Of a DNA stretch of 64,000 nucleotides, positions 30,561-47,816 are shown piece after piece. Numbering within the stretch: the first letter of the stretch is position 1; the number at the start of each line of letters is the position of its first letter. The notes under the pieces are model-generated. The model made no database searches. It was not told the origin of the DNA and saw only the letters and a program-made list of their open reading frames with translations. The stretch comes from Sphagnum magellanicum (taxonomy: Eukaryota > Streptophyta > Sphagnopsida > Sphagnales > Sphagnaceae), in assembly GCA_021904315.1 (NCBI GenBank), contig CM038911.1:13303390-13367389 (forward strand), in the 5' to 3' direction. A program made the translations under genes and the position numbers.

Positions 30561-31087
30561 CTTATCATGAAATCAAGGTCCTTAGAAGGGACATCCTTGG
30601 CTAAGGACTTCAATAAGTGTCATGGGCTTCAATAATTCACCAAAAGTCAAAAATAATTTTAGAAATAAAAGGAAAGAAGGAAGGAAAGGGGGTTCGGTGG
30701 GGTAGGCACTAAGCATCCTATGAAATGAAAACATCAAGTACAGCTTGTTTTTTTGGGGCAAAATATTTAGTAGATTGGGAAAAATAAAACAAAAATTTGG
30801 CATTTAAAAATAAGCCAAAATTTTTATTAATTTTTGGGTAGTTTGAAACTCATTCAAGTAATCCACAAGGTGAAATGCACTTGGCAATTTGGCAATGTGG
30901 TGTTACTAATTGAACTTTACGATTGCTTGGGAACATGGCCTTGGTAATGAAAAATTAATAATTTGACAATGTGGACAAGTGAAATATTAGTAAAGTCAAC
31001 TTGGCAATAACTAAATAACTATATGGACTTGTGCAATTTAGCAAAATGGAGTTGAACTTAGCAAATTACATAAGCATAAAGCATTGT
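30561..31087. other. A+T-rich spacer, no gene seen
   Basis: The sequence holds short repeated phrases such as CTTGGCAATTTGGCAATGTGG but no supported feature. It separates the RPA-like frame from the left LTR of the gypsy element. Confidence 0.4.
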
Positions 31088-31405
31088 TGTCATGCCCGTA
31101 TGCATGGCCTTATACATGATGGCCAATTATAGGCATGCCAATGATGCATTTAGGGTTAATGTACGTTCTTAGATTATTGTACATCATGAGGTGTTTTAGG
31201 GTTATGGCTTGTTTAAGGTTTCAGCTTTGTTAACGACTGTATAAAAGGCCAAGCTCATCCCTTCTCTTGTTAGTTTTTCTAGAATTCTTTTGTTAGGGAG
31301 AGTTTTTTCCATAGTCTGACTGAATTTCTAGATGTTCACGACGACTATTACACAACCATCATTTACATACACTACGTTTTCTTTCCTTCTTTCTAATTTA
31401 ATTCT
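31088..31405 (+). repeat. Left LTR (recognisable part)
   Basis: It starts TGTCATGCCCGTATGCATGG and parallels 42270-42602 through blocks GGTGTTTTAGGGTTATGGCT, GTTAGGGAGAGTTT and ACGTTTTCTTTCCTT. A promoter-like TATAAAAGG lies at about 31240; the right LTR has TATAAGAGG at the same place. Similarity ends near 31405, so the true LTR may be longer. I could not place a primer-binding site. Confidence 0.6.
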
Positions 31406-32471
31406 AGAAAAATTACTTTCTATCATTTAATGTTGAAAGCGGTAGATTTTTCCTGGCTTTGAGTTTCTTGGGTTTCTTTTGCTTGTTGATTTCTTGTGTT
31501 CTTGAGTTGCTATTACTTCTTTTTCTTTTTCTACTATTGTACTACAGCTACAACATGAACAATAACCATAACTAGCAATAATGTAAACAAGGGAAAAGGC
31601 ACACCGGAAACATGTTATAAGTTGTGAAGTTCTAAGTTTCGAAGCTTCGAAGCGAGGAAGGAGCGAACAGTTCCAAAGCTTCTTTTACTACCAGCTTTAG
31701 GTCTTGAAAGCGTGCACACACACACACACACAAGGTTTGATTACAGTACAAGATTTACACCAGGTGATGCAACCCTACATACACTTACTTTCTTTGTACA
31801 TGGGTTTTGAGGTTAGTATCTGGGCTGTGCACTCCTATGTGTTTTTGAGCTTGTAGTCATGTAGTGAGTGGCCTTTGTAGCAACTTTGGAAGAAGAAAAA
31901 GAAGAGGAGAATAATAAATTTAAAAAACACAAAGTAAAAGAAAAAAATTTCTCTTTTATCTTTTGCATGCCATTGTTGCAGAATTTGCGGACATAGATCG
32001 TTTTGTAATGTTGTCGTTGGCACAGTTTGTTGTAGTCGCCATTCGTTTCGTTTCATCGTTCCATTCAATGTTCAATTGTCATTCTGTTCGACGTCCGTCT
32101 TTGTTTCATTGGACGTTCGTTGCCATTCCATTTGATGTCCGTCCTCATTCTGTTTGACATCCATTGCTGTCCAATCGTCCAGTTTCGTCCATCTGACATC
32201 TGTTAGTTTAGTTTCGTCCATCTGACGTCCGTCGTTGTTTGTTTGTCCAGTTTCGTCTGTCCAACCTTTTCCATCCATTGACATCCATCCATTAATGTCT
32301 ATCCATGGACATCCGTCCAAAGACATCCATCCAGAGACATCCATCCATCGACGTCCGTCCGTCATTGTTCATCCTCGTCGACGCACCGTATTTTTCAAAA
32401 CGTATGTTGTGTTAGAACTTTGTAACTAGTGCTATGTATTGTTACAAAATTTTGGGGCATGGGACAACACC
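31406..32471 (+). other. Retrotransposon leader with (CA)n and a GACATCCATCC minisatellite
   Basis: This is the stretch between left LTR and gag. A (CA)n run lies at 31717-31731. From about 32050 to 32380 there is an array of short units based on (C)GTCCATCTGACGTC and GACATCCATCC. ORFs on both strands there (32072-32365 -, 32235-32429 +) are repeat by-products. Confidence 0.6.
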
Positions 32472-34856
32472 ATGTCCTCGAATGATGAAAGCACTACCGC
32501 TCAGCCAGAGCTAAGGTATCAGCTACAAAATAACACATAATCATTTGAGCCGATTTTTTTGAATTCACGATCTTCATGATGGTATCATCAAACATCTATA
32601 GCGTCATCATCATCCAGTACAACTCCTACTAAGAATTCAGGTTTAGGTTACACTACATCAATGGTACATCAAAATACATTTGGAGGGGTTAGTCAGTGGG
32701 GTATACTTGTTGCCACACCGACTTTCACACCATCACCGTATATTCCGATGCAAACTGTGACCTCTACACCCATATACATCATGGAGGTCAGCATTTCCTC
32801 TTAGAGAATTGAGAAGTTCAGTGGAAAGCTAGGTACCATTTCTTTGATGGAATTCAAGGCAACTTTTTCAACTATGCTTTGTGAATTGGAGTTCAAGTAT
32901 GGCATTAATTACACCAAGGTGTTCGCATTCAAATAACTGGCCCATTATGTGCACTATGAGGCATGGATGTCTATGAGCAACATTCTCCGAGGATTTTGGG
33001 TGTCATTTAGATCCTCAATCCAACTTATGCCACAGCCATCGCCACTACCTCTTAAACTGCACTATAAGCTACCATTGCACATCATGGGACTGTGCCCAAT
33101 AATCCAAATCAGGTACCTATTTCAATAAACCTTTCTCCTCAACTGACGCGCTCCCAAGTCCCTAGTTAGCCCCAAGTTGAGGCTAAGTCACTCAAGTTGC
33201 GAAATTTCTGGGACTCAGGGCACGCTCCCAACTTCCAGCATTAAAGGGGGTGAGAGGGGCGTGCTGAAAGCTCTAGGATTAGACTACGAAGAGGGACAAG
33301 CTTACTCGATTATTCGGTCCCGCATCCAAATCCAACCAACAAGTTGGTTAGAATTCATTCTGCACACTTTCAGTGTTGGGACAAGCCACGAGCGACCTTG
33401 GAGTCATTTGACTCACCACGGCCCGGACTCGGGGGAAGCCACCACCTTCCCCCATATAGTATTCTCTGCAACTCTTCGCCGCACTTGTATCCAAATGGTT
33501 TTTTTTCCCGGGACTCCCAAAGTGGAGTCTCGAAACTGTCCTGGTTTGGAGTCCCAGGACTTTAGGCACTCATAACTTCTCGCCCCGAACTTGGATTGGG
33601 ACAAGGTCTAAACCAAAGTTGTAGCTCTCCTTGAGAGCTTTCCAATGGTGTGTCACACTTCACCTGTACGCACCAGAATTAGGTCGATTCCCGACTTTTA
33701 GTGGTCGGGAGTCAAACTGCTAGTTCGACTCCCAGCCCTTCTTTTGACCATAACTTGTGCTACAAACGTCCAAATGGCTCATGCAAGGCCATTTGGACAT
33801 CTACCGTTCAAGACTTTTCCAACGGTATAAAGAACGCTTCAATGCAAGGTGTTTTGACCTCTGCAATCGCGCTCTGAGTTTTTGGGAGTCTCGGAGGACT
33901 CCCAAGTCCCATTTTCGGGAGTGTGAGTGGTGACCTCCCACTCCCTCAAAGTGGGGTTGCGACATCAACGACTCATTGCTGCTACCACAAACATTCCTCC
34001 CACCATCGATGCACCAACTTTTGCTGATCCAATGGGGGAATTCTTTCGAGTTCTTGAGTTGGAATTTCCGGTTAAGAGTTCTGAAATTTTTTTGTAGTTC
34101 GCCATCTTCTCTCGGCAAAAGGATGAAACCCTCAAGATGCTCTACAGGAGGCTTCTCAAATGTAAAGAGGATATTCAGAGCATCACAGACCTGGAAGTTG
34201 CCCATTAGTATTTTCGTTTGTTGGAAAGTACTCCGACACTCCATGTGTAGGTTTTGCAACAGGATTTTGTAGAATTTAAAGATTCGTACACTTTGCTGGA
34301 TGTGTACAACATTTCTGAAAAGTTGGAATTGGCTCATGCACATTATGAGGCCAATATTATGAGGCCTCCATCACGTTCAAGGCTTCAACTTCCACCAATT
34401 GTACCAACCAAATCATCACATTCTTCTTCAAGGTCTAAAGTGATGCATTCGGCTGCACCCATCGTACCTTCTTGTAACTAATGTGGTAATCCTACCCACA
34501 AAGTTAGTGAGTGCAACATTCCTTCCGAACATCTCTTTTGTGATTATTGTGGGTAGGAAGGACATTAGAAAACTATCGTGGAACAAAAGCAACTCCGATT
34601 ACCACTACAAAATATGCCAACATCTTCTGCTACCCCTCAACCAAAAGCCAAGGCAGTTCAGCCTTCCATTTAGGCTTTCCCCACCAACGGTAATTTTAGT
34701 AAGAACGCTAAAAAGAAGGAACATAATGCTAATAATAGCGAGGTGCTTCAAGCCCATGCTATTCAAGTTCAAACTTTGCAAAATGAACTTGAATCATTGA
34801 AGGCCCAACTTACTAATCTAAAAGGCAAGTCTTCCCAACCAGCTAGTCATGCCTAA
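32472..34856 (+). pseudogene. gag of the gypsy element, interrupted by a solo LTR
   Basis: The frame begins MSSNDESTTAQPELRYQLQ at 32472 and shows a capsid-like stretch EKFSGKLGTISLMEFKATFS. It breaks at the solo LTR (33144-33964) and resumes at 33970. Near 34465-34580 are two zinc knuckles: CxxCGNPTHKVSEC (CX2CX4HX4C, one x a stop) and CDYCGxEGH with the last Cys replaced. Then comes a Lys-rich linker and a coiled-coil-like tail (IQVQTLQNELESLKAQL) to 34856. Several CAA/CAG-type codons have become stops. The family role is packaging of the element RNA; this copy is non-functional. Confidence 0.7.
33144..33964 (+). mobile_element. Solo LTR (family L), 821 bp, inserted in gag
   Basis: It begins TGACGCGCTCCCAAGTCCC and ends GGGGTTGCGACA (TG...CA). 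The 5-bp target duplication TCAAC is present on both sides (33139-33143 and 33965-33969). It is homologous, in inverted orientation, to 34990-35807. It has no coding capacity. A single LTR with intact target duplication is the normal product of LTR-LTR recombination. Confidence 0.85.
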
Positions 34857-34989
34857 CTTGTACAGGGTTCAGCATCATGGGAGGGACCTCCTAGGTCATT
34901 CTATGATGTCTCACACGATGCCATGGTTGGGGAGTATATTCTTTCCAATGCACAAAATTCTAGTTTCACACCAAAATTTACCTTTTTTT

Positions 34990-35807
34990 TGTCACAACCC
35001 TACTTGGAAGAGTGTGAGGATGAGACTCACACTCCCAAAATTTGGGACTTGGGAGTCCTCCGGGACTTCCAAAACTTCAGAGTTTGATTTTGGGGGTCAA
35101 AACACCTTGCATTTAAGTGTTCTTTATATCATTGGAAAGCTATTGAAGTGTAAATGTCGAAAATGGCCTCATATGGGCCATTTGGACATCTGCAGCACAA
35201 GTTATGGCAAAAAGAAGGGCCAAGAGTCAAACTACTAGTTTGACTCTCGACCACTAAAAGTCAAGAATTGACCCAACCTCGATGTGTGCAGGTGAAGTGC
35301 AACACACCTTTGAAAAGCTCTCAAGGAGAGCTACAAAATTCTTTAGATCTCATCCCAATCGGAGGTCTGAGCAAAGAGTTATGATCGCTCAAAGTCTCAG
35401 GAGTCCAAACTGGGACAATTTCGGGACTCCTCCTTAGGAGTCCCGGGACAAAAAGCCATTCGGATGTGGGTGCTACGGAAAGGCACAGAGTATACTATGT
35501 GGGGGAAGGTGGTGGCTTCCCCCAAGTCCGGGCTATGGTGAGTCAAGTGAGTCCAGAGTTGCCCGTGGCTTGTCCTAGCATCAAGGGTGTTCTAGAATGT
35601 GAACTAACCAACTTGTTGGTTGGTTTGATGTAGGTTCGAGTAAGTGAATAGCTTGTCACTCTTCCTAGTCCCATCCCGGAGCTTCAGCACGCCCTTCTAC
35701 CCCTTTTAGTGCTAAGAGTTGGACGTGTGCTTCGAGTCCCCAACAATTCCGCAATTTGAGTAACTTAGGCCCAACTTGGGGTTAACTAGGGACTTGGGAG
35801 TGCGTCA
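34990..35807 (-). mobile_element. Solo LTR (family L), 818 bp, opposite orientation
   Basis: Read on the - strand it begins TGACGCACTCCCAAGTCCC and ends AGGGTTGTGACA, matching 33144-33964 throughout. It is flanked by TTTTT on both sides (34985-34989 and 35808-35812), a 5-bp duplication within a T-run and so less certain than TCAAC. It lies just after gag in the same gypsy element. Confidence 0.85.
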
Positions 35808-35812
35808 TTTTT

Positions 35813-36840
35813 AGCCTTCCTACTTCGCGACACAAAAGGCTAATGTGGCACCCAAAGTTTTTACCATTAGGCAAGTAATTCAAACTGATGGACTTGTATT
35901 TAGTTCAAGTCCTATTACCAGGGCTAGAGGAGCTTGAGAAGTCATGTCATAATCTTTTTGTCCTCTCAACATGGAAGAAGAACACACCTTGTTGGCGAGG
36001 GGGGAAGAGACTATTACACCACAAGTTGTTTGGGCATTAAATTCTTGTGTCCTAGGAATACATGTACATTGGGAAAACACACAATTTTCCGCTGATCAAC
36101 TTATGGAGTGCCAACTTCAAATGCATGAAGTGGCGCAAAAGGTTGTGAGTACATTGTTGTTTAGTTTTCAAGATTTGAAGCTAAGCACCAGGGACATAAT
36201 TTTAGTACTAAAGGATACCTTGAACACTACATCAGGTCCTCTACCAACCCCTGATCCACATGCTACAGGGGTCCCATCCAACACCTTGGAGAGACACTCA
36301 ATTGGCTCACATGTTGGAAATGGCGTTCGTAATTTGGTCACTAGTTTTAGCATGGTTAAATTAATGGGCTCTTTTACCTTTGATTCTGCATTCACATATT
36401 AGAAGGGAGTTAAGAACACTTCACTTGTGGATTTGTTACTCATCAAAGGTGTTGTGGATAACCATTCCCTCCATAAAGTCTTGCACTCATTTCCAAAGGT
36501 GGTGTCTAATGAGAAAACTTCCATCACCACCGAAGTTGCCATTGTCGACAATACTGAATGGGCAATTTAGGTGGGATGACATACACCCAGAGTGGTACTT
36601 TTTGATACAGGTGACCAACCAGTGATTCTTGGAGTTCAATTCCTATGAAGATGGGCATGTTCGATTCCAAACTATGGAAATCTATGTGGCAATTCGCATC
36701 GCTAGTGGGAGCGTAAAGGAGGTACTTGGGGAGAGCTTGGATTTGATTGCATTTAACTTCAATGAAGGTATAGATCAGGAGCTTTGCCTACATGTCAGAT
36801 GTTTAGTCACCAAACCCACTAGTTAGATGTGTTCATTGGG
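35813..36840 (+). pseudogene. gypsy pol start: linker and aspartic protease
   Basis: A frame at 35971-36402 (MEEEHTLLARGEETITPQVV...) has no domain I know. It continues after a stop through VLHSFPKVVSNEKTSITTEV to the protease signature RVVLFDTGDQPVILGVQF at about 36575-36630, with the DTG active-site triad. The following IRIASGSVKEVLGESLDLIA and, near 36820-36850, DVFIGQE-type sequence fit the flap and C-terminal part of retroviral-type proteases. A single-base frame change lies near 36640. Confidence 0.65.
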
Positions 36841-37244
36841 CAAGAGGACATGTTTCCACCAAGTTTCATAATTGACAACTAGTTTGAGCATGCGTACTAC
36901 GAGTGGATTATGAGACTGGTGGCCACCACCTGGGATACATACCCCTTGATTTACATGGGAACCATAGTCCTATGGTTCACCATTGTATGCTCAAGGAAGC
37001 ACACACTATTTCCTACATCCAAAAAACTAACCACGAATGGATAGGGGGAGATGAAGAGGATATAGCTTACGCCCAAGCTACTGAAAGCTTGAGGGTGGTT
37101 CCTACCAACATTCAACACGGACAAGAGGTTTTATAGAAGTTCAAAGCAGCTCACGAGCCCTTGGTCAAAGCTCTGTCTAGTTTTGAGAACATGGAGAACC
37201 ATGGCAAACCGATTAAGCTAATATTTCATCAACTAATTACCTAG

Positions 37245-38360
37245 ACACCGCCTAAGGAGGGGATTACATTATTAAAGCTTTTTGGTGGCATTGGTATAGG
37301 TCTCGAAGCCCTACTATAGTCAAGGATGGTGGTTCAGAGGTATTTTTATGTAGACATTGATCCTATTGTAAGGCAAGTGGTGGCATCGAGAATGATGGAG
37401 CTCACAGCCAAATTTCCATAACAATTTGCAACCACCGCATGGAAGGCCAATTTCACTTTCTTGCCCTCTAACATACAACTGATTCAAAAGAAGCATATGG
37501 AATTATTTGGCCTTGTGGACCTCATCATTTTAGGTTGGGAGTGTCAAGGATTTTTAGTAGCTGGATTTGGAGAAGGCTTGAGTGACACAAGATCCAGTCT
37601 CTTCATGGACATGGTACAATCACCTGGGCTCAATCCATTTCTCTTATGCTTGGTTACGTAATTGAGAACACCCATTCTTAGCTTGACTAGAGGGAGAAAG
37701 TCCAGGAGCACTACACGCTAATCAAACATTACCTTGGAGAGCTGATTTTATTCGATGCGACACAATGTGGTTCCTATGCGCATCAGCTGTGCAACTGGTG
37801 GACTAACCTTGCATCACTTTCAGTTCTACAATTGGTTCTGAGATACACCATCAAAGACCCCAACCTACAGGTTTCTCACATATTAGATGATTTGAGCTCT
37901 TGCCAACCAGTTGCAAGGTAAGAGAAACCTCCTTGGTTTCATGGGAACACAATAGGAAAACCAAAAGGTGTTTGGCCCACCTTTTTCTCTTTCCTAGGAG
38001 CACATTCCTTTCAGGGAGATGGAGTAGGCCTAGTGTATTGTCATGCTTCAGCCACTTGGGATGAACCAAGCCCAGAAGAAAGAGAAAGGGCTATGGGGTT
38101 CCAAACTGACACTACTAGTCACACCAAGGTGACTAGATTGGAGCGTAACGCTCTACTGGGAAGAGGCATGGACCTGAACTCCCTTACATGGTTATTGGTA
38201 ACCTATGTACTTTTTCAAATGTACACAACACCAACACTGATTCAATTAGCTTGCAGTTCTGGTGATACGACTACATGGCACTTCGACCAAGTACACTTGC
38301 TTATCTTCAACACTCTACACTTCATTCTTAGTGTTGGGAGGAAGAGGTACCATGTAATTT
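37245..38360 (+). pseudogene. Cytosine-C5 DNA methyltransferase-like domain within the gypsy polyprotein
   Basis: About 320 codons carry C5-MTase motifs in canonical order. Motif I is LLKLFGGIGIGLEALL (FGGIGIG at 37281-37301, AdoMet binding) and motif II is YFYVDIDP. Motif IV is DLIILGWECQGFLVAGFGEG (Cys codon 37542-37544). Motif VI is YVIENT (ENT at 37664-37672). A motif VIII-like QCGSYAHQLCNWW follows, and motifs IX/X are ERERAMGFQ then RLERNALLGRGMDLNSLTWL (about 38080-38200). The usual P before the catalytic Cys is E. After motif IV there is one frameshift (near 37610), and stops occur at LL*, FP* and ENTHS*. The domain lies between the protease (about 36.6 kb) and the RT (38.57 kb), in the same orientation, with linkers of several hundred bases. 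The family methylates DNA cytosine at C5. This copy cannot make the enzyme. I cannot assign it to DRM, CMT, MET1 or a bacterial-like clade. Confidence 0.75.
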
Positions 38361-38568
38361 GACTCAAGTTGTTTTTCATACACTTGGAGGTACATCAGCT
38401 TCTGGAGAAACAATTACAACCTTTTATAAATCTGCGTAGTTAGATAGTGGAGAACCCAATACACTACGTTTTTCAAAGACATTTTCTAACTCCATTCCAT
38501 GTGTTTCTAACTACCCTTTTGTTATGGGGAACCAGCTCACCAAGAAGGAGAGAAACTAGGTCATAGAC

Positions 38569-40158
38569 TTGCTAATTAAATATGAGAATGTGTTCGCATT
38601 TTCAATGAAAGATTTAGGTAGGTGTAAGACCATGCAGTTCCTTATAGACCTTACAGATGAGACACCCATCTATTGGAGGAGGCACAAGTTGAGCAAGCAT
38701 GGGTGGGAACTGGTAGATGAAAGATGCAAAAAGCTCCATGAGGCTGGTCCCATTCAATCATCAAGTTCTGATTTTGCAACCACTATAGTAATGCCAACAA
38801 AAAAAGATTCAGCTAGATTATGGACTGAGAAAAGGATGTGTGGGGATTATAGGCCTTTGAACCTAGTTACACCTTAGGATAGGTACCCCATGCCCATCCC
38901 TAAAGAATTGTTTGATAACATTGGAGACCTAAACACCTTCACAATTGTGGATTTGAGGCAAGGCTTTAACCAGATTGTGTTTGTTGCAAAAGATCACAAG
39001 AAAACGACATTCTATGGAAGCAACAAGTTGCGGGGATGGCTTGTGATGCCTTTTGGATTAAACAATGCACCCATCTTCTTTCGGAAAAACGAAATAAATA
39101 GTAAATTTTTGTTTTTTTTATGAAAAACTCTAAGCACTATATAAATAAATAAATAATCATAAAGAGAAATCATCGAGTGATAAGGAATATATGGATTTTC
39201 GAGAAGGGAGGAGCCTCGGATGACTAGTCCCCCCTGGACTGCCCAGATCCCACGAGTGAATGGCGAGTTGAATTTCCATTAGATCTCACTAACTATTGCG
39301 AGTTTCCTTGTCCGGAAATATTAAAAACGAAAAAATCGGATCCGTATATTGGAGAGGTACCAAAACCAAATAGCCATTTTATTCGAACCCAAAGCCGGAT
39401 GATGGGAAACTATCATGTACGGCTTCGAGGGAGGGAAAAAATACCCTACCCGCCGTGACCATTGTCATTGTTACTTTTTCTAAGTTCTGCTTTGGTAGAA
39501 GTGGGATGGAGTCTTACCCACGATGATTTAATAGAATTGGGAGAAGCAGTAGGTATTATTGCGGGTTAATCCATCGGAGAACCCGGGACTCAGTTAACAT
39601 TAAGAATTTTTCATAGTGGTGGAGTATTTACGGGTGACATTACGGAACACGTGTGAACTACGAGGCTTGGACTAGGTTTTTGAAAAGGCAAATTTCTTGA
39701 AATGCTAAATAGATGACGTCCTAATGCATAACAAGGGATTCTTGCAACATTTGGCTGATCTTGAAGAGTTATTCAAGAGGCTCCACGAAGTCAATATGAA
39801 GACCCATCCTAAAAAGTGTGAGTTTGCTATCACCTTAATAGTCCACCTTGGACACAAAATTTTGCTAAATGGTATTATAGTTCATTGGGCCAAAGTAGTA
39901 GCCATTTTGGAGATGCCCAATCCTACTAATGTTCACACTTTGAGGAGCTTCATTGGATTATGTAATTACTATTGGATTTATGTCCAAGACTTTAGTACTA
40001 TTGCTCATCCTCTCTATGCATTATTAAAAAAGGATGTTACTTGGACATGGAGTGAAGAAGCTCAAGAAGCTTTTAACACATTCAAGGAAAAGCTTTCAGA
40101 ATTCCCCATTCTAAAAAGACCTGATTTCAGCAAGGTCTTCATTCTACATGTTGACTAG
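38569..40158 (+). pseudogene. Reverse transcriptase of the gypsy element, split by organelle-type DNA
   Basis: 38569-39080 carries the N-terminal RT: KRMCGDYRPLNLVTP, then after a stop YPMPIPKELFDNIGD, FTIVDLRQGFNQIV (catalytic Asp of motif A) and MPFGLNNAPIFF. The frame then enters foreign DNA and resumes at about 39670 with VFEKANFLKC, a stop where Tyr is expected, and IDDVLMHNKGF. The IDD is the YxDD box (39709-39717). It continues with MKTHPKKCEFA and LRSFIGLCNYYWIYVQDFS to the RT connection. The order and spacing are those of Ty3/gypsy RTs. Confidence 0.85.
39085..39660 (+). other. Organelle-derived insertion in the RT: group II intron 3' end plus rpoC2-like fragment
   Basis: Between the broken RT halves is unrelated DNA. 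At 39392-39425 a 34-nt hairpin AAGCCG...CGGCTT with a GAAA loop has the form of group II intron domain V. It is followed by a GGGAGGG/CCCTACCC stem as in domain VI. At 39510-39655 the frame reads LTHDDLIELGEAVGIIAG, stop, SIGEPGTQLTLRIFHSGGVF, matching plastid rpoC2 (RNA polymerase beta''), in which the stop is Gln (CAA to TAA). A TGA follows EHV where Arg is usual. This is a nuclear plastid-type insertion. The intron's host gene is not identified, so the insert may be a joined mosaic. Confidence 0.65.
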
Positions 40159-40500
40159 AGTGTTCTTGGTATTGGTGCTATTTTTGGCCAACTTGATGAG
40201 GAAGGTAAAAAATATGTTATCGCCTATGCATCCCGAAGCAACAACAAGGCTAAAAAGCAACTGCTTTTCATACGAGGGGGAGTGTCTTGCTGTTGTATGG
40301 GTCGTCATACATTTCAGGCCTTATCTTTATTGCACCAAGTTTATTTTGTATATCGACCACCAACCTATCAAATGGTTGATGACTAACGATAAGTTTACTA
40401 GTAAGTTAGCTCGTTGGGTGTTTATACTTCAGGAGTATACGTTCAAGGTTATTCACCGACCTGGTATTACACATTAAAACGCGGATACCATGTCGCGGAG
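40130..40500 (+). pseudogene. RNase H domain of the gypsy element
   Basis: The frame reads FILHVD, stop, SVLGIGAIFGQLDEEGK, then YVIAYASRS. After a frame change it reads YEGECLAVVWVVIHFRPYL and FILYIDHQPIKWL, ending with VFILQEYTFKVIHRPGITH at 40477. These are the catalytic D-E-D surroundings of Ty3/gypsy RNase H, with a stop at the usual Trp and one frameshift near 40250. Confidence 0.75.
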
Positions 40501-40809
40501 ACCCTTCACTACCTTTGAAGATTTTTCAGAAGCCAAGCAAGATTTCGACCAGATTCCAGTAATACATGTATCTTATGCATCTAGTTATCTTACAATATTC
40601 CAATGTTACCTAGTTGAGCATCCCATTATGGATATATGGGAGGGCTTAGACACTATGAAGTTTCTTTAGCATGGGGAATACCTTCCCCAATTAGTTACAT
40701 CAAGTCAACGAGATCGCATACAACAGCAGTCCAAACGCTACTCATGGAGGGATAATCACCTCGTTTGATGCTTACCACAAGGCAACAAAGTGGTTCTTCC
40801 ACCACATGA

Positions 40810-41892
40810 ATGGCTTGGTCTTATTCAAAAGGTACATCAGAGCTTGGACATTTTGGAGTTAAGCGTACTTATAGCCTTTTCGCTCTTCATTACCATTGGA
40901 GAGGTATGTATGCTCAAGTCCGAAACATCATTGCTAAGTGTGAACAATGTGATAGAGTGAGAACTTCCTTCTCCTCTCAACAGTTCACGCTTTCTCCACT
41001 CCCTATTCAGGGCATGTTCTATCATTGGTCATGTGATTTAACTGGAGAATTACCACAAACCTCCAAAGGTAATGTCTACATCAGAGCTTATTATGCTGCT
41101 GAACAAGTCATCACATAGCACCAGCCAAACTTTCTTACAATAGGTCTTAAATAGGTTTGGGGCTTATGTTAAGTGCTTTATTAATCAAGGATCAAAATTT
41201 AGAGGAGAATTCCAAGACCTATTTAATCATGCTCTCATTGACCATCGTCGAACTTCAAGGGATCATCCCCAAGCTGATGGCCTTGCGAAGAGGATGGTTA
41301 AGCAAGAAGGGAACTCGGAAGATTTGCCTCATCGAGAACAAAGAGGATTGGGACCTAGCCCTACCTTACATCGCCATGGGTTCCAGGATGTCCAAACACG
41401 CCTCTTTGTTTCATTTCGCTCCTTACTTTCTACTTTTTGGGAGACATCCCATTCCACCTTCTTCCATTATTGCTCAAATGGACCAGGTTGTGGACTTGGA
41501 CTTTCCAGCCACTTGGGTTAGGGTCATCGCAGAAAGGGCTATTCTATTCAGGAGGGTTATGCCCATGGCCATGGAGAACTTGTCCATTACACAACATCAA
41601 AACACTTTATAGTATGCACACACACGAAGGTGGTAATTATAAACCTAAGGTGAAACAATTTGATGTTAGTGATTTGGTGTATCTCCAATGGCAACCTAAT
41701 GATACTCTAGACACTTCTTCCGATCACATTATCTTGAGGATTAAGGCGATCAGGCCTTTAGGTGTGTTGGAATTGCAAGGAGTTAACAGACGCATAATTC
41801 AGGATCACTCCAAAAACTATGCGCCTTGCCACCTGTTGAACTTAGATCTTACCATCATCACATTGACTTGGATTCCTCCATTTGACTATCCA
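40810..41892 (+). pseudogene. Integrase of the gypsy element, inactive
   Basis: The HHCC zinc site is visible as LGHFGV ... HYHW ... CEQC. The core begins WSCDLTGELPQTSKGNVYI, with the first catalytic Asp. The chain is then interrupted by what looks like an internal deletion of some 20 codons (about 41080-41110). The second catalytic position reads FINQGSKF, where family members have TDQGxEF. The Glu position reads PQADGLAKRMV, where ERxV is usual. Both are therefore substituted. The C-terminal part (YKPKVKQFDVSDLVYLQ, LRIKAIRPLGVLELQG) resembles the SH3-like tail seen before chromodomains, but no chromodomain follows. Confidence 0.75.
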
Positions 41893-42030
41893 TGTCAAGT
41901 ATGTCAGAGGAGAAACGATCCTGATTAGATGTTGTTTTGTGATAATTGTAATGGTGGATACCATTTATTCTACCTCAAGCCGAAACTCATTCAAGTTTTT
42001 GCCGACATTTGGTATTGTTCATCATGTTTT
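41893..42030 (+). pseudogene. PHD finger at the C-terminus of the gypsy polyprotein
   Basis: In the integrase frame, CQVCQRRNDPD, a stop, then MLFCDNCNGGYHLFYLKP and WYCSSC show the Cys4-His-Cys3 spacing of a PHD finger. One Cys is replaced by Tyr (HLFYL) and one codon is a stop. PHD fingers read histone H3 tails. Here it occupies the place where chromoviruses have a chromodomain, which suggests a role in target-site choice (inference). Confidence 0.75.
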
Positions 42031-42094
42031 TTTATAACACCTTGATTTCTACTCAGACCATGCCACACTTTTCCTAGCTCACGTCTTGGGGGGG

Positions 42095-42262
42095 ATACAT
42101 AAGAATTTCATCTCAACCTCCTCTTGTGCATTGTATATATATGTGTGTGCATATCTTTAATTGATTAGTTTCTACCTTTGACTGGTTTTAGTCTTTTTGT
42201 TCAGTAGAGTTTACTATGGATTTACACCCTTACGAGACCGAACGTCATGACACTACATGTCA
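42095..42262. repeat. Repeat A, left of the right LTR block, after a G-run (polypurine-tract candidate)
   Basis: TTGGGGGGGATA at about 42085-42096 is a candidate polypurine tract. The next 165 bp (AATTTCATCTCAACCTCCTC ... ACTATGGATTTACACCCTTA) recur at 42604-42765, so the LTR-like block 42270-42602 is bracketed by direct repeats. Confidence 0.65.
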
Positions 42263-42269
42263 CGACAGT

Positions 42270-42602
42270 TGTCATGCTTGTATGCATGGCCTCATACATG
42301 AGGGTTAATTATGAGCATGCCAGTCATGCCTTTAAGGTTAATGTACACTCTTAGGGTTAATGTATGTTTTAGGTTATTGTACGTTATTAGGTGTTTTAGG
42401 GTTATGGCTTGTTTAGGGTTTCAGCTTGTTGACATATGTATAAGAGGCCAAGTTCTTCCCTTTTCTTGTTAGTTTTCCTAAAATTCCTTTGTTAGGGAGA
42501 GTTTCTTCCATAATGAGATTAGATTTCTAAATGTTCATGGCGGCTATTGCATGGCCACCGTTTCCATACATTACGTTTTCTTTCCTTTTTTTCAATTTAT
42601 AT
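42270..42602 (+). repeat. Right LTR (part matching the left LTR)
   Basis: It starts TGTCATGCTTGTATGCATGG and matches 31088-31405 with many substitutions and one extra short duplication (TTAATGTA...TTAGGGTTAATGTATG). The divergence from the left LTR indicates an old insertion. Confidence 0.65.
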
Positions 42603-42603
42603 A

Positions 42604-42765
42604 CATGAAAATTTCATCTTAGCCTCCTCTTGTGCATTATATATATATGTGCATGCATTTCTTTTTGGTTGATTAGTTTTTACCTTTGACTGGTTTTAGT
42701 CTTTTTGTTTAGTAAAGTTTACTATGGATTTACACCCTTATAACACCAAACATCACGATAGGACA
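42604..42765. repeat. Repeat A', right of the right LTR block
   Basis: This is the second copy of 42095-42262, including TTTGACTGGTTTTAGTCTTT and TTTACTATGGATTTACACCC. It may be part of the LTR, in which case the left end of the element is truncated, or the result of unequal recombination. Confidence 0.6.
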
Positions 42766-42769
42766 TTTG

Positions 42770-45291: not shown

Positions 45292-47816
<2,525 letters not shown>

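Follow-up and report, generated by a model that had tools for sequence, protein, structure and literature searches.

A Sphagnum Ty3/gypsy-type retrotransposon family with a DNMT3-type methyltransferase domain, a PHD finger and split repeats

The locus described here raises the question of what a plant retrotransposon family does with a cytosine methyltransferase of its own. Plants silence transposons by DNA methylation, and for this reason an element bringing its own DNMT3-type enzyme would turn the arms-race picture of silencing round. The element lies in a 64,000-nucleotide stretch of the Sphagnum magellanicum genome (assembly GCA_021904315.1, contig CM038911.1, positions 13,303,390 to 13,367,389; here called the window) and is a Ty3/gypsy-type retrotransposon with a C5 methyltransferase domain in Pol. 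The window copy is decayed and unable to produce the enzyme: its methyltransferase stretch (37221-38245) has one frameshift and six in-frame stops, of which one lies in the linker ahead of the domain. The question is what the family does. Taken jointly, it appears rather probable that Sphagnum harbors a family in which a DNMT3-type domain and a PHD finger are native to Pol, the direct repeats are split, and the enzyme would act on the element's own complementary DNA (cDNA), which would integrate from a circle.

The methyltransferase domain and its place in Pol

Pfam PF00145 matched the translation of the first domain piece (from 37245) with E 3.8e-6 and 27 bits against a cut-off of 22, while the second piece, searched alone against Pfam, gave no match. 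A clean genomic copy could be aligned to the window at 79% identity over 37221-37619 and, after one frameshift, at 84% over 37619-38245. The C5 methyltransferase domain that a preliminary description had read from the sequence is real, with a profile match above the cut-off, and it is native to Pol. Its motifs stand in canonical order, and in profile as well as fold comparisons DNMT3 comes first by a wide margin. The fold comparison (VIA-align) displayed 50 entries without a DRM, DNMT1 or CMT chain, and the 57 compared PDB sequences included none named DNMT1 or CMT, which in either case excludes nothing. Two host genes (L002 and L005) were read by eye as DRM-type, with motifs IX-X standing before motif I.

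An origin of the domain from a bacterium or virus (Dcm type) and not from eukaryotic DNMT3 was considered as well. Relatives occur at 9 bacterial genome or bin loci and at 23 viral-contig loci, with best segments of 23-45% identity that mostly cover part of the domain, and the match to the NCBIfam dcm model stays far under the cut-off; a first scan of viral contigs yielded no relative of the domain. The wide margins by which DNMT3 leads in profile and fold disfavor this origin, which we regard as improbable.

To describe the element, coordinates are given as positions in the window. All parts of the element are on the + strand; its coding parts were mostly located by tblastn mapping of a clean genomic copy, and Pfam was run on one clean copy. 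The following features were assigned:

31086-31414, +: repeat A, first copy, left end of the element (78% to the second A copy by blastn; starts with TGTCATG as in clean copies)
31240-31246: TATA-like TATAAAA in repeat A (read by eye)
32451-34877, +: gag region, interrupted by a nested repeat at about 33143-33950 (tblastn with the gag frame of the clean copy, 70-75%)
33141-33964, no strand assigned: nested repeat copy 1, foreign to the element (inverted match to 34990-35810, 78%)
34990-35810, no strand assigned: nested repeat copy 2 in opposite orientation, foreign to the element (78% to copy 1)
36565-36855 (about), +: aspartic protease (mapped from the clean copy, where gag-asp_proteas has E 1.2e-6, above cut-off)
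37221-38245, +: DNMT3-type C5 cytosine methyltransferase domain plus a few linker residues (frameshift near 37619)
37539-37544, +: motif IV Glu-Cys (GAG TGT) in place of Pro-Cys (sequence reading)
38341-39087, +: reverse transcriptase, first part (tblastn 82%; RVT_1 E 1.8e-28 on the clean copy)
39088-39660, +: 573-bp insert interrupting the reverse transcriptase, foreign to the element (tblastn gap; RNA_pol_Rpb1_5 E 4.2e-15 on a 58-residue piece)
39661-40440, +: end of the reverse transcriptase and RNase H (tblastn; Pfam on the clean copy)
40793-41627, +: integrase with H2C2 zinc finger and DDE core (tblastn; Integrase_H2C2 E 4.6e-16 and rve E 6.5e-12 on the clean copy)
41890-42024 (about), +: PHD finger, C-terminus of Pol (PF00628 E 3.5e-10 on the window letters, one stop as X)
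42088-42094, +: G tract (polypurine tract) immediately 5' of repeat B (read from sequence; same in two clean copies)
42095-42258, +: repeat B, first copy (85.5% to 42601-42766)
42268-42613, +: repeat A, second copy (palindromic junction with B, CACGACAGTTGTCATG in the window)
42601-42766, +: repeat B, second copy, decayed right end of the element (85.5% to the first B)

We have very little doubt about this anatomy. Pol is ordered as protease, DNMT, reverse transcriptase, RNase H, integrase and a C-terminal PHD finger, all on the + strand, which bears out the placement of the domain between protease and reverse transcriptase, in the orientation of gag and the rest of Pol, that had been proposed earlier. 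That proposal had recognized the C5 domain and missed the PHD finger. In the clean copy the PHD finger follows the integrase core with E 6.5e-12, and it was found in 79 of 240 related proteins. A chromodomain after the integrase, the trait of chromoviruses, was absent from the Pfam matches of one clean copy at E <= 0.01, and the PHD finger was present. Two CCHC zinc knuckles were recognized by eye in the gag of the clean copy.

The genome (439 Mb, 31 contigs) was searched with one natural domain as query, and 131 of 1015 candidates were scored, so that the resulting counts are lower bounds. At least 131 further copies with the domain were detected at 78-98% identity to this query (132 match rows, one copy being split in two). 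A search for intact copies had been suggested in the preliminary description; 13 matches span all 300 residues without a stop, and the open frames surrounding matches run to as many as 2379 codons. A second, liverwort-like subfamily (type 2, as opposed to type 1 in the window) gave full-length matches of 67-76% to a Calypogeia domain, and at least six more Sphagnum copies at 44-50% were absent from the type 1 list. The possibility that a fragment of a host methyltransferase gene had been inserted by chance into one copy would be in keeping with the decay of the window copy and its foreign insertions. It is refuted by the presence of the domain in the other genomic copies and by its position before the reverse transcriptase in two Sphagnum subfamilies, in Marchantia, in Closterium and in further elements; we give it practically no credence. 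The earlier caution about such an insertion is thereby answered in part.

Motif IV of the window copy reads G-W-E-C-Q, with the Glu codon at 37539-37541 and the Cys codon at 37542-37544. The usual DNMT3 Pro-Cys is replaced by Glu-Cys in all of the 30 best genomic copies (best by protein similarity), which likewise keep Glu-Cys-Gln and Glu-Asn-Thr (30/30). The Glu before the catalytic Cys, rightly called unusual from the window alone, is therefore the state of the family and not an oddity of one copy.

Selection on the domain was analyzed by comparing variants restricted to one copy with shared variants. This comparison was employed because the pairwise ratio of non-synonymous to synonymous divergence (dN/dS) did not discriminate: it was 0.22 for 55 stop-free pairs and 0.25 for 10 pairs with at least two stops (reverse transcriptase 0.28, protease 0.23), and was discarded as selection evidence on its own. 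One of the 30 best copies differed in length and was left out; in the other 29, synonymous and non-synonymous methyltransferase variants numbered 28 and 110 among singletons, 35 and 37 among variants in two or three copies, and 23 and 9 among those in at least four copies (Fisher test of the first against the last class, 5e-8). The same three classes gave 47:91, 25:36 and 14:9 for the reverse transcriptase, of which 25 copies offered a usable stretch (p 0.02 for the first class compared with the last). Without selection 2.46 non-synonymous changes per synonymous change are expected (singleton spectrum, stops omitted); the singletons show 3.93 (stops counted) and the shared variants 0.39. Singletons mostly represent decay after insertion, and shared variants went through replication. 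As the shared variants are mostly synonymous and the singletons are not, the domain was under constraint while the element was active. Three points weigh against this reading, namely the insensitivity of the pairwise values to stops, the choice of the 30 copies by protein similarity, which favors low dN, and the split of 35 to 37 among variants in two or three copies.

CpG depletion was tried as a mark of self-methylation and rejected, as two host DRM-like genes (0.27 and 0.29) were as depleted as the coding pieces of the element (0.32-0.48). C-to-T changes in the methyltransferase region of copies L021-L050 were recorded separately by context: singletons comprised 65 CHH, 19 CHG and 10 CG changes, and changes in two or three copies 20 CHH, 34 CHG and 15 CG.

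Split repeats and a possible circular intermediate

The left end of the window copy consists of A only and the right end of B, A and B, so that the element has split direct repeats in the order A-coding-B-A-B. The preliminary description had the element bounded by related long terminal repeats (LTRs); this does not hold, since the same LTR is not found at both ends, the left having only A and the right B-A-B or B. In two clean type 1 copies the repeats are nearly identical (A 315 bp at 99.0% and B 185 bp at 97.8% in one; A 313 bp at 99.7% and B 178 bp at 100% in the other). The liverwort-like subfamily has other A and B sequences in the same order (A 287 bp at 98.6% plus 62 bp at 96.8%, B 107 bp at 100%), and the junction CACGACAG.CTGTCATG is common to both Sphagnum subfamilies.

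The ends of the 16 best type 1 copies and of three stop-free type 2 copies were examined. Element copies begin with TGTCATG and end with CACGACA (TG...CA) within 4-bp target duplications. An exact duplication was present in 14 of the 16 type 1 copies, the other two being one that matches at three of four bases (C2) and one without a right end (C20), and in two of the three type 2 copies, the third of which has no left end. Overall, 16 of 17 copies with both ends show exact duplications, with a chance of about 5e-38 if bases were random; no duplication could be read at the ends of the window copy. For 17 copies (14 of type 1, C10 and C20 being left out, and three of type 2) the integrated form could be classed by its right end as A-coding-B-A-B (8/17) or A-coding-B (9/17). 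None of the 16 classed copies with a recovered left end has B there. The integrase is of the DDE type (rve), and no Phage_integrase match was obtained at E <= 0.01 in three frames of one copy.

One copy (C10; 16.164-16.175 Mb; L069, L070) has inverted A and B on both sides, its outer ends being B and A reversed. It contains a 4-bp TACA repeat within A, and its outer duplication AATT was counted among the 14 exact ones. This structure looks like what is expected from an element that integrated into itself before insertion.

A classical LTR element with A-B as its LTR, of which A-coding-B-A-B would be a rearrangement product, could be imagined because joined A-B begins with TG and ends with CA. 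We judge this very improbable: A-coding-B-A-B recurs in 8 of 17 copies and in two subfamilies with differing A and B, the polypurine tract precedes B and not A, no recovered left end has a B in the element's orientation, and the exact target duplications flank the start of A and the end of B. By ordinary reverse-transcription logic, the polypurine tract before B and the TATA-like box in A point to B-A as the LTR, and reverse transcription would produce a cDNA with this LTR.

The Pol-bound methyltransferase would then methylate the element's own cDNA before or during integration, a step for which we see the chances as about evenly balanced. The palindromic B|A junction (CACGACAG.CTGTCATG) would be the site at which the DDE integrase opens circular cDNA, so that circles with two LTRs would yield A-coding-B-A-B and those with one LTR A-coding-B; to opening at this site we would likewise assign roughly half of our confidence. 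The junction bases GC between CACGACA and TGTCATG are missing at the outer ends. Integrases leave CA-3' ends, and by this rule the loss of GC would be expected. The PHD finger would steer the complex to chromatin. Owing to the methyl mark, new copies may be taken into silent chromatin at an early stage, which would limit damage to the host; alternatively, the mark may protect the cDNA.

Two points speak against this route. A primer binding site of the usual tRNA type was not recognized by eye after A. In addition, A-coding-B may have arisen by B x B recombination after insertion, with the integrating DNA always being A-coding-B-A-B; recombination between direct repeats would preserve the target duplication, as is observed. 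Against this, the short form is no rarer than the full one in the best-preserved copies (9 and 8), and we hold this recombination to be somewhat less probable than an even chance.

Relatives and known systems

Three protein searches were performed, one of which gave the best 120 of 288 hits, and 240 proteins were classified by domain order. The preliminary description had mentioned captures of such enzymes in a few algal or protist lineages and had missed the relatives that follow. Among the matches listed, relatives are named from Sphagnum compactum, S. magellanicum, S. fallax, Marchantia polymorpha, Calypogeia fissa, Closterium sp. NIES-53, Haematococcus lacustris and Monoraphidium neglectum, with one protein from a bacterial bin (P0192); one further protein has what we take from its label to be a Chromochloris-type code. 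The domain stands before the reverse transcriptase, as in the window, in 13 proteins and after RNase H in 81, of which 57 have the order reverse transcriptase, RNase H, DNMT, integrase, PHD; 114 are fragments with the domain alone and 32 are of undecided order. The named proteins with the domain after RNase H are chlorophyte, apart from P0192. A 'cyanobacterial' contig (L073) and this 'Minisyncoccia' protein bear algal-type relatives, probably as algal contamination of bacterial bins.

In a reverse transcriptase tree of 20 sequences (midpoint drawn), Sphagnum types 1 and 2, Marchantia, Closterium and three further protease-first elements group together with a support of 94; P0133 and P0240, which also have the domain before the reverse transcriptase, fall outside with weak support. 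A DNMT tree of 32 sequences without an outgroup has type 2, the liverworts, Closterium and the chlorophyte type in one group with a support of 98; Sphagnum type 1 stands apart from it, in a weakly supported position (48). Sphagnum type 1 is thus placed differently by the two trees, which may point to a shift of the domain within Pol, to an exchange or to several acquisitions.

For comparison with known systems, the open-access subset of the literature was searched, including passages or sections of PMC5890265, PMC12344493, PMC6453930 and PMC10952607. The kind of element is already known as KnitGypsy-Dnmt3 of Klebsormidium nitens, a Gypsy-type element with a DNMT3-type domain that is presented as an independent acquisition in that lineage (de Mendoza et al. 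2018, PMC5890265). As far as the consulted sections go, both have a Gypsy-type Pol (reverse transcriptase, RNase H, DDE integrase), an unrearranged DNMT3-type domain under purifying selection and a DIRS-like repeat plan, given for the K. nitens element in a figure legend. Unlike that report, the present data cover mosses, liverworts, Closterium and chlorophytes with two domain positions, and set beside it they add the Glu-Cys motif IV, the 4-bp target duplications and the TG...CA ends; the words 'PHD' and 'circular' do not occur in the main text of PMC5890265. No K. nitens-named protein was among the matches listed (best 120 of 288 in one search), and common descent with the K. nitens copies is not supported by these matches.

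In the parts consulted, the same authors proposed self-cDNA methylation for DIRS elements. SymbioDIRS-Dnmt3 and SymbioLINE-Dnmt of Symbiodinium are likewise retrotransposon-encoded, the SymbioDIRS repeats being ordered A-coding-B-A-B and its domains methylating CG in yeast; they differ in their tyrosine recombinase or LINE machinery and host lineage (PMC5890265). A 2025 paper, as far as consulted, describes DNMT3 members in retrotransposons of streptophytes and dinoflagellates. DNMT3A and DNMT3B are nearest by profile and fold and share the canonical motif order, whereas identity is 17-23% in the fold tables, the Sphagnum domain has Glu for Pro in motif IV, and Pfam finds no ADD or PWWP neighbor in the clean copy, with a PHD finger far downstream instead. 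PAT, Ngaro and DIRS elements have similarly split direct repeats, implying a circular or junction intermediate, and use a tyrosine recombinase without target duplication; the Sphagnum element differs by its DDE integrase and 4-bp duplications. In transposon circles of the IS3 family a DDE enzyme acts on abutted inverted ends a few bp apart. These are bacterial DNA transposons, and the likeness is an analogy of mechanism only. Open-access titles and abstract starts revealed no Sphagnum, liverwort or chlorophyte element of this kind, nor a PHD finger in one. Within the reach of this literature, what is new is the wide distribution, the PHD finger, Glu-Cys at motif IV, the two positions of the domain and split repeats that occur with a DDE integrase and target duplications.

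The motif states of the relatives bear on whether the domain is a catalytically dead binder or scaffold (DNMT3L-like), kept for integrase or reverse transcriptase function. Where readable, Glu-Cys is present in motif IV of 60 of 64 Sphagnum type 1 proteins, 2 of 2 from Closterium and 3 of 3 further protease-first proteins; the chlorophyte-type group has Glu in 77 of 94, Pro in 15 and Ser in 2. Pro-Cys is found in 9 of 9 readable liverwort-type proteins and in 5 of 5 of another relative group. Of 55 type 1 proteins readable at motif VI, 49 keep Glu-Asn; the Asn is missing from P0133 and from one Closterium protein. The frequent Glu and the missing Asn would suit a dead module, and without the usual Pro the domain could bind without methylating. 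An active enzyme is also made less certain by the K. nitens domain, which was translated in yeast without methylation, a result that its authors call inconclusive as human DNMT3B failed too (PMC5890265, sections consulted). The predicted structure of the Sphagnum domain has moderate confidence only (pLDDT 69.9 for the best of five models, 55-60 for the others). The catalytic Cys and the motif VI Glu-Asn, kept in 30 of 30 best copies, would be needless for a pure binder, and the chlorophyte-type group has both Glu and Pro. A dead module therefore seems unlikely.

Wider occurrence and further features of the window

The 2018 report gave one Klebsormidium acquisition. Related domains are here traced to mosses and liverworts, to a zygnematophyte and to chlorophytes, and a chromatin reader accompanies many of them. 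Within the green lineage, elements potentially writing the host silencing mark thus look more widespread than reported. Tentatively, and well short of an even chance in our judgement, there may be a green-lineage class of retrotransposons that both writes (DNMT3) and reads (PHD) marks and integrates from circular cDNA via a permuted-LTR junction, older than land plants and perhaps than the streptophyte-chlorophyte split. In such a class the circle would be opened by a DDE integrase at a palindrome within the permuted LTR, and split repeats flanked by 4-bp target duplications would result. Self-methylation is directly testable in a sequenced moss with well-preserved copies, and the co-occurrence of split repeats, a DDE integrase and target duplications raises a clear question on circle-based integration.

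The remaining features of the window do not concern the family itself. The foreign repeat of about 820 bp is present twice in inverted orientation (78% alike), inside gag and before the protease, and splits the gag/protease region. The 573-bp insert in the reverse transcriptase of this nuclear element copy is partly like plastid rpoC2; its plastid origin was judged by eye. ARAGORN detected no tRNA in the window. A coding piece matching Oxidored_FMN (Pfam E 2.7e-24), OPR-like by eye, is located on the minus strand at 45292-45834.
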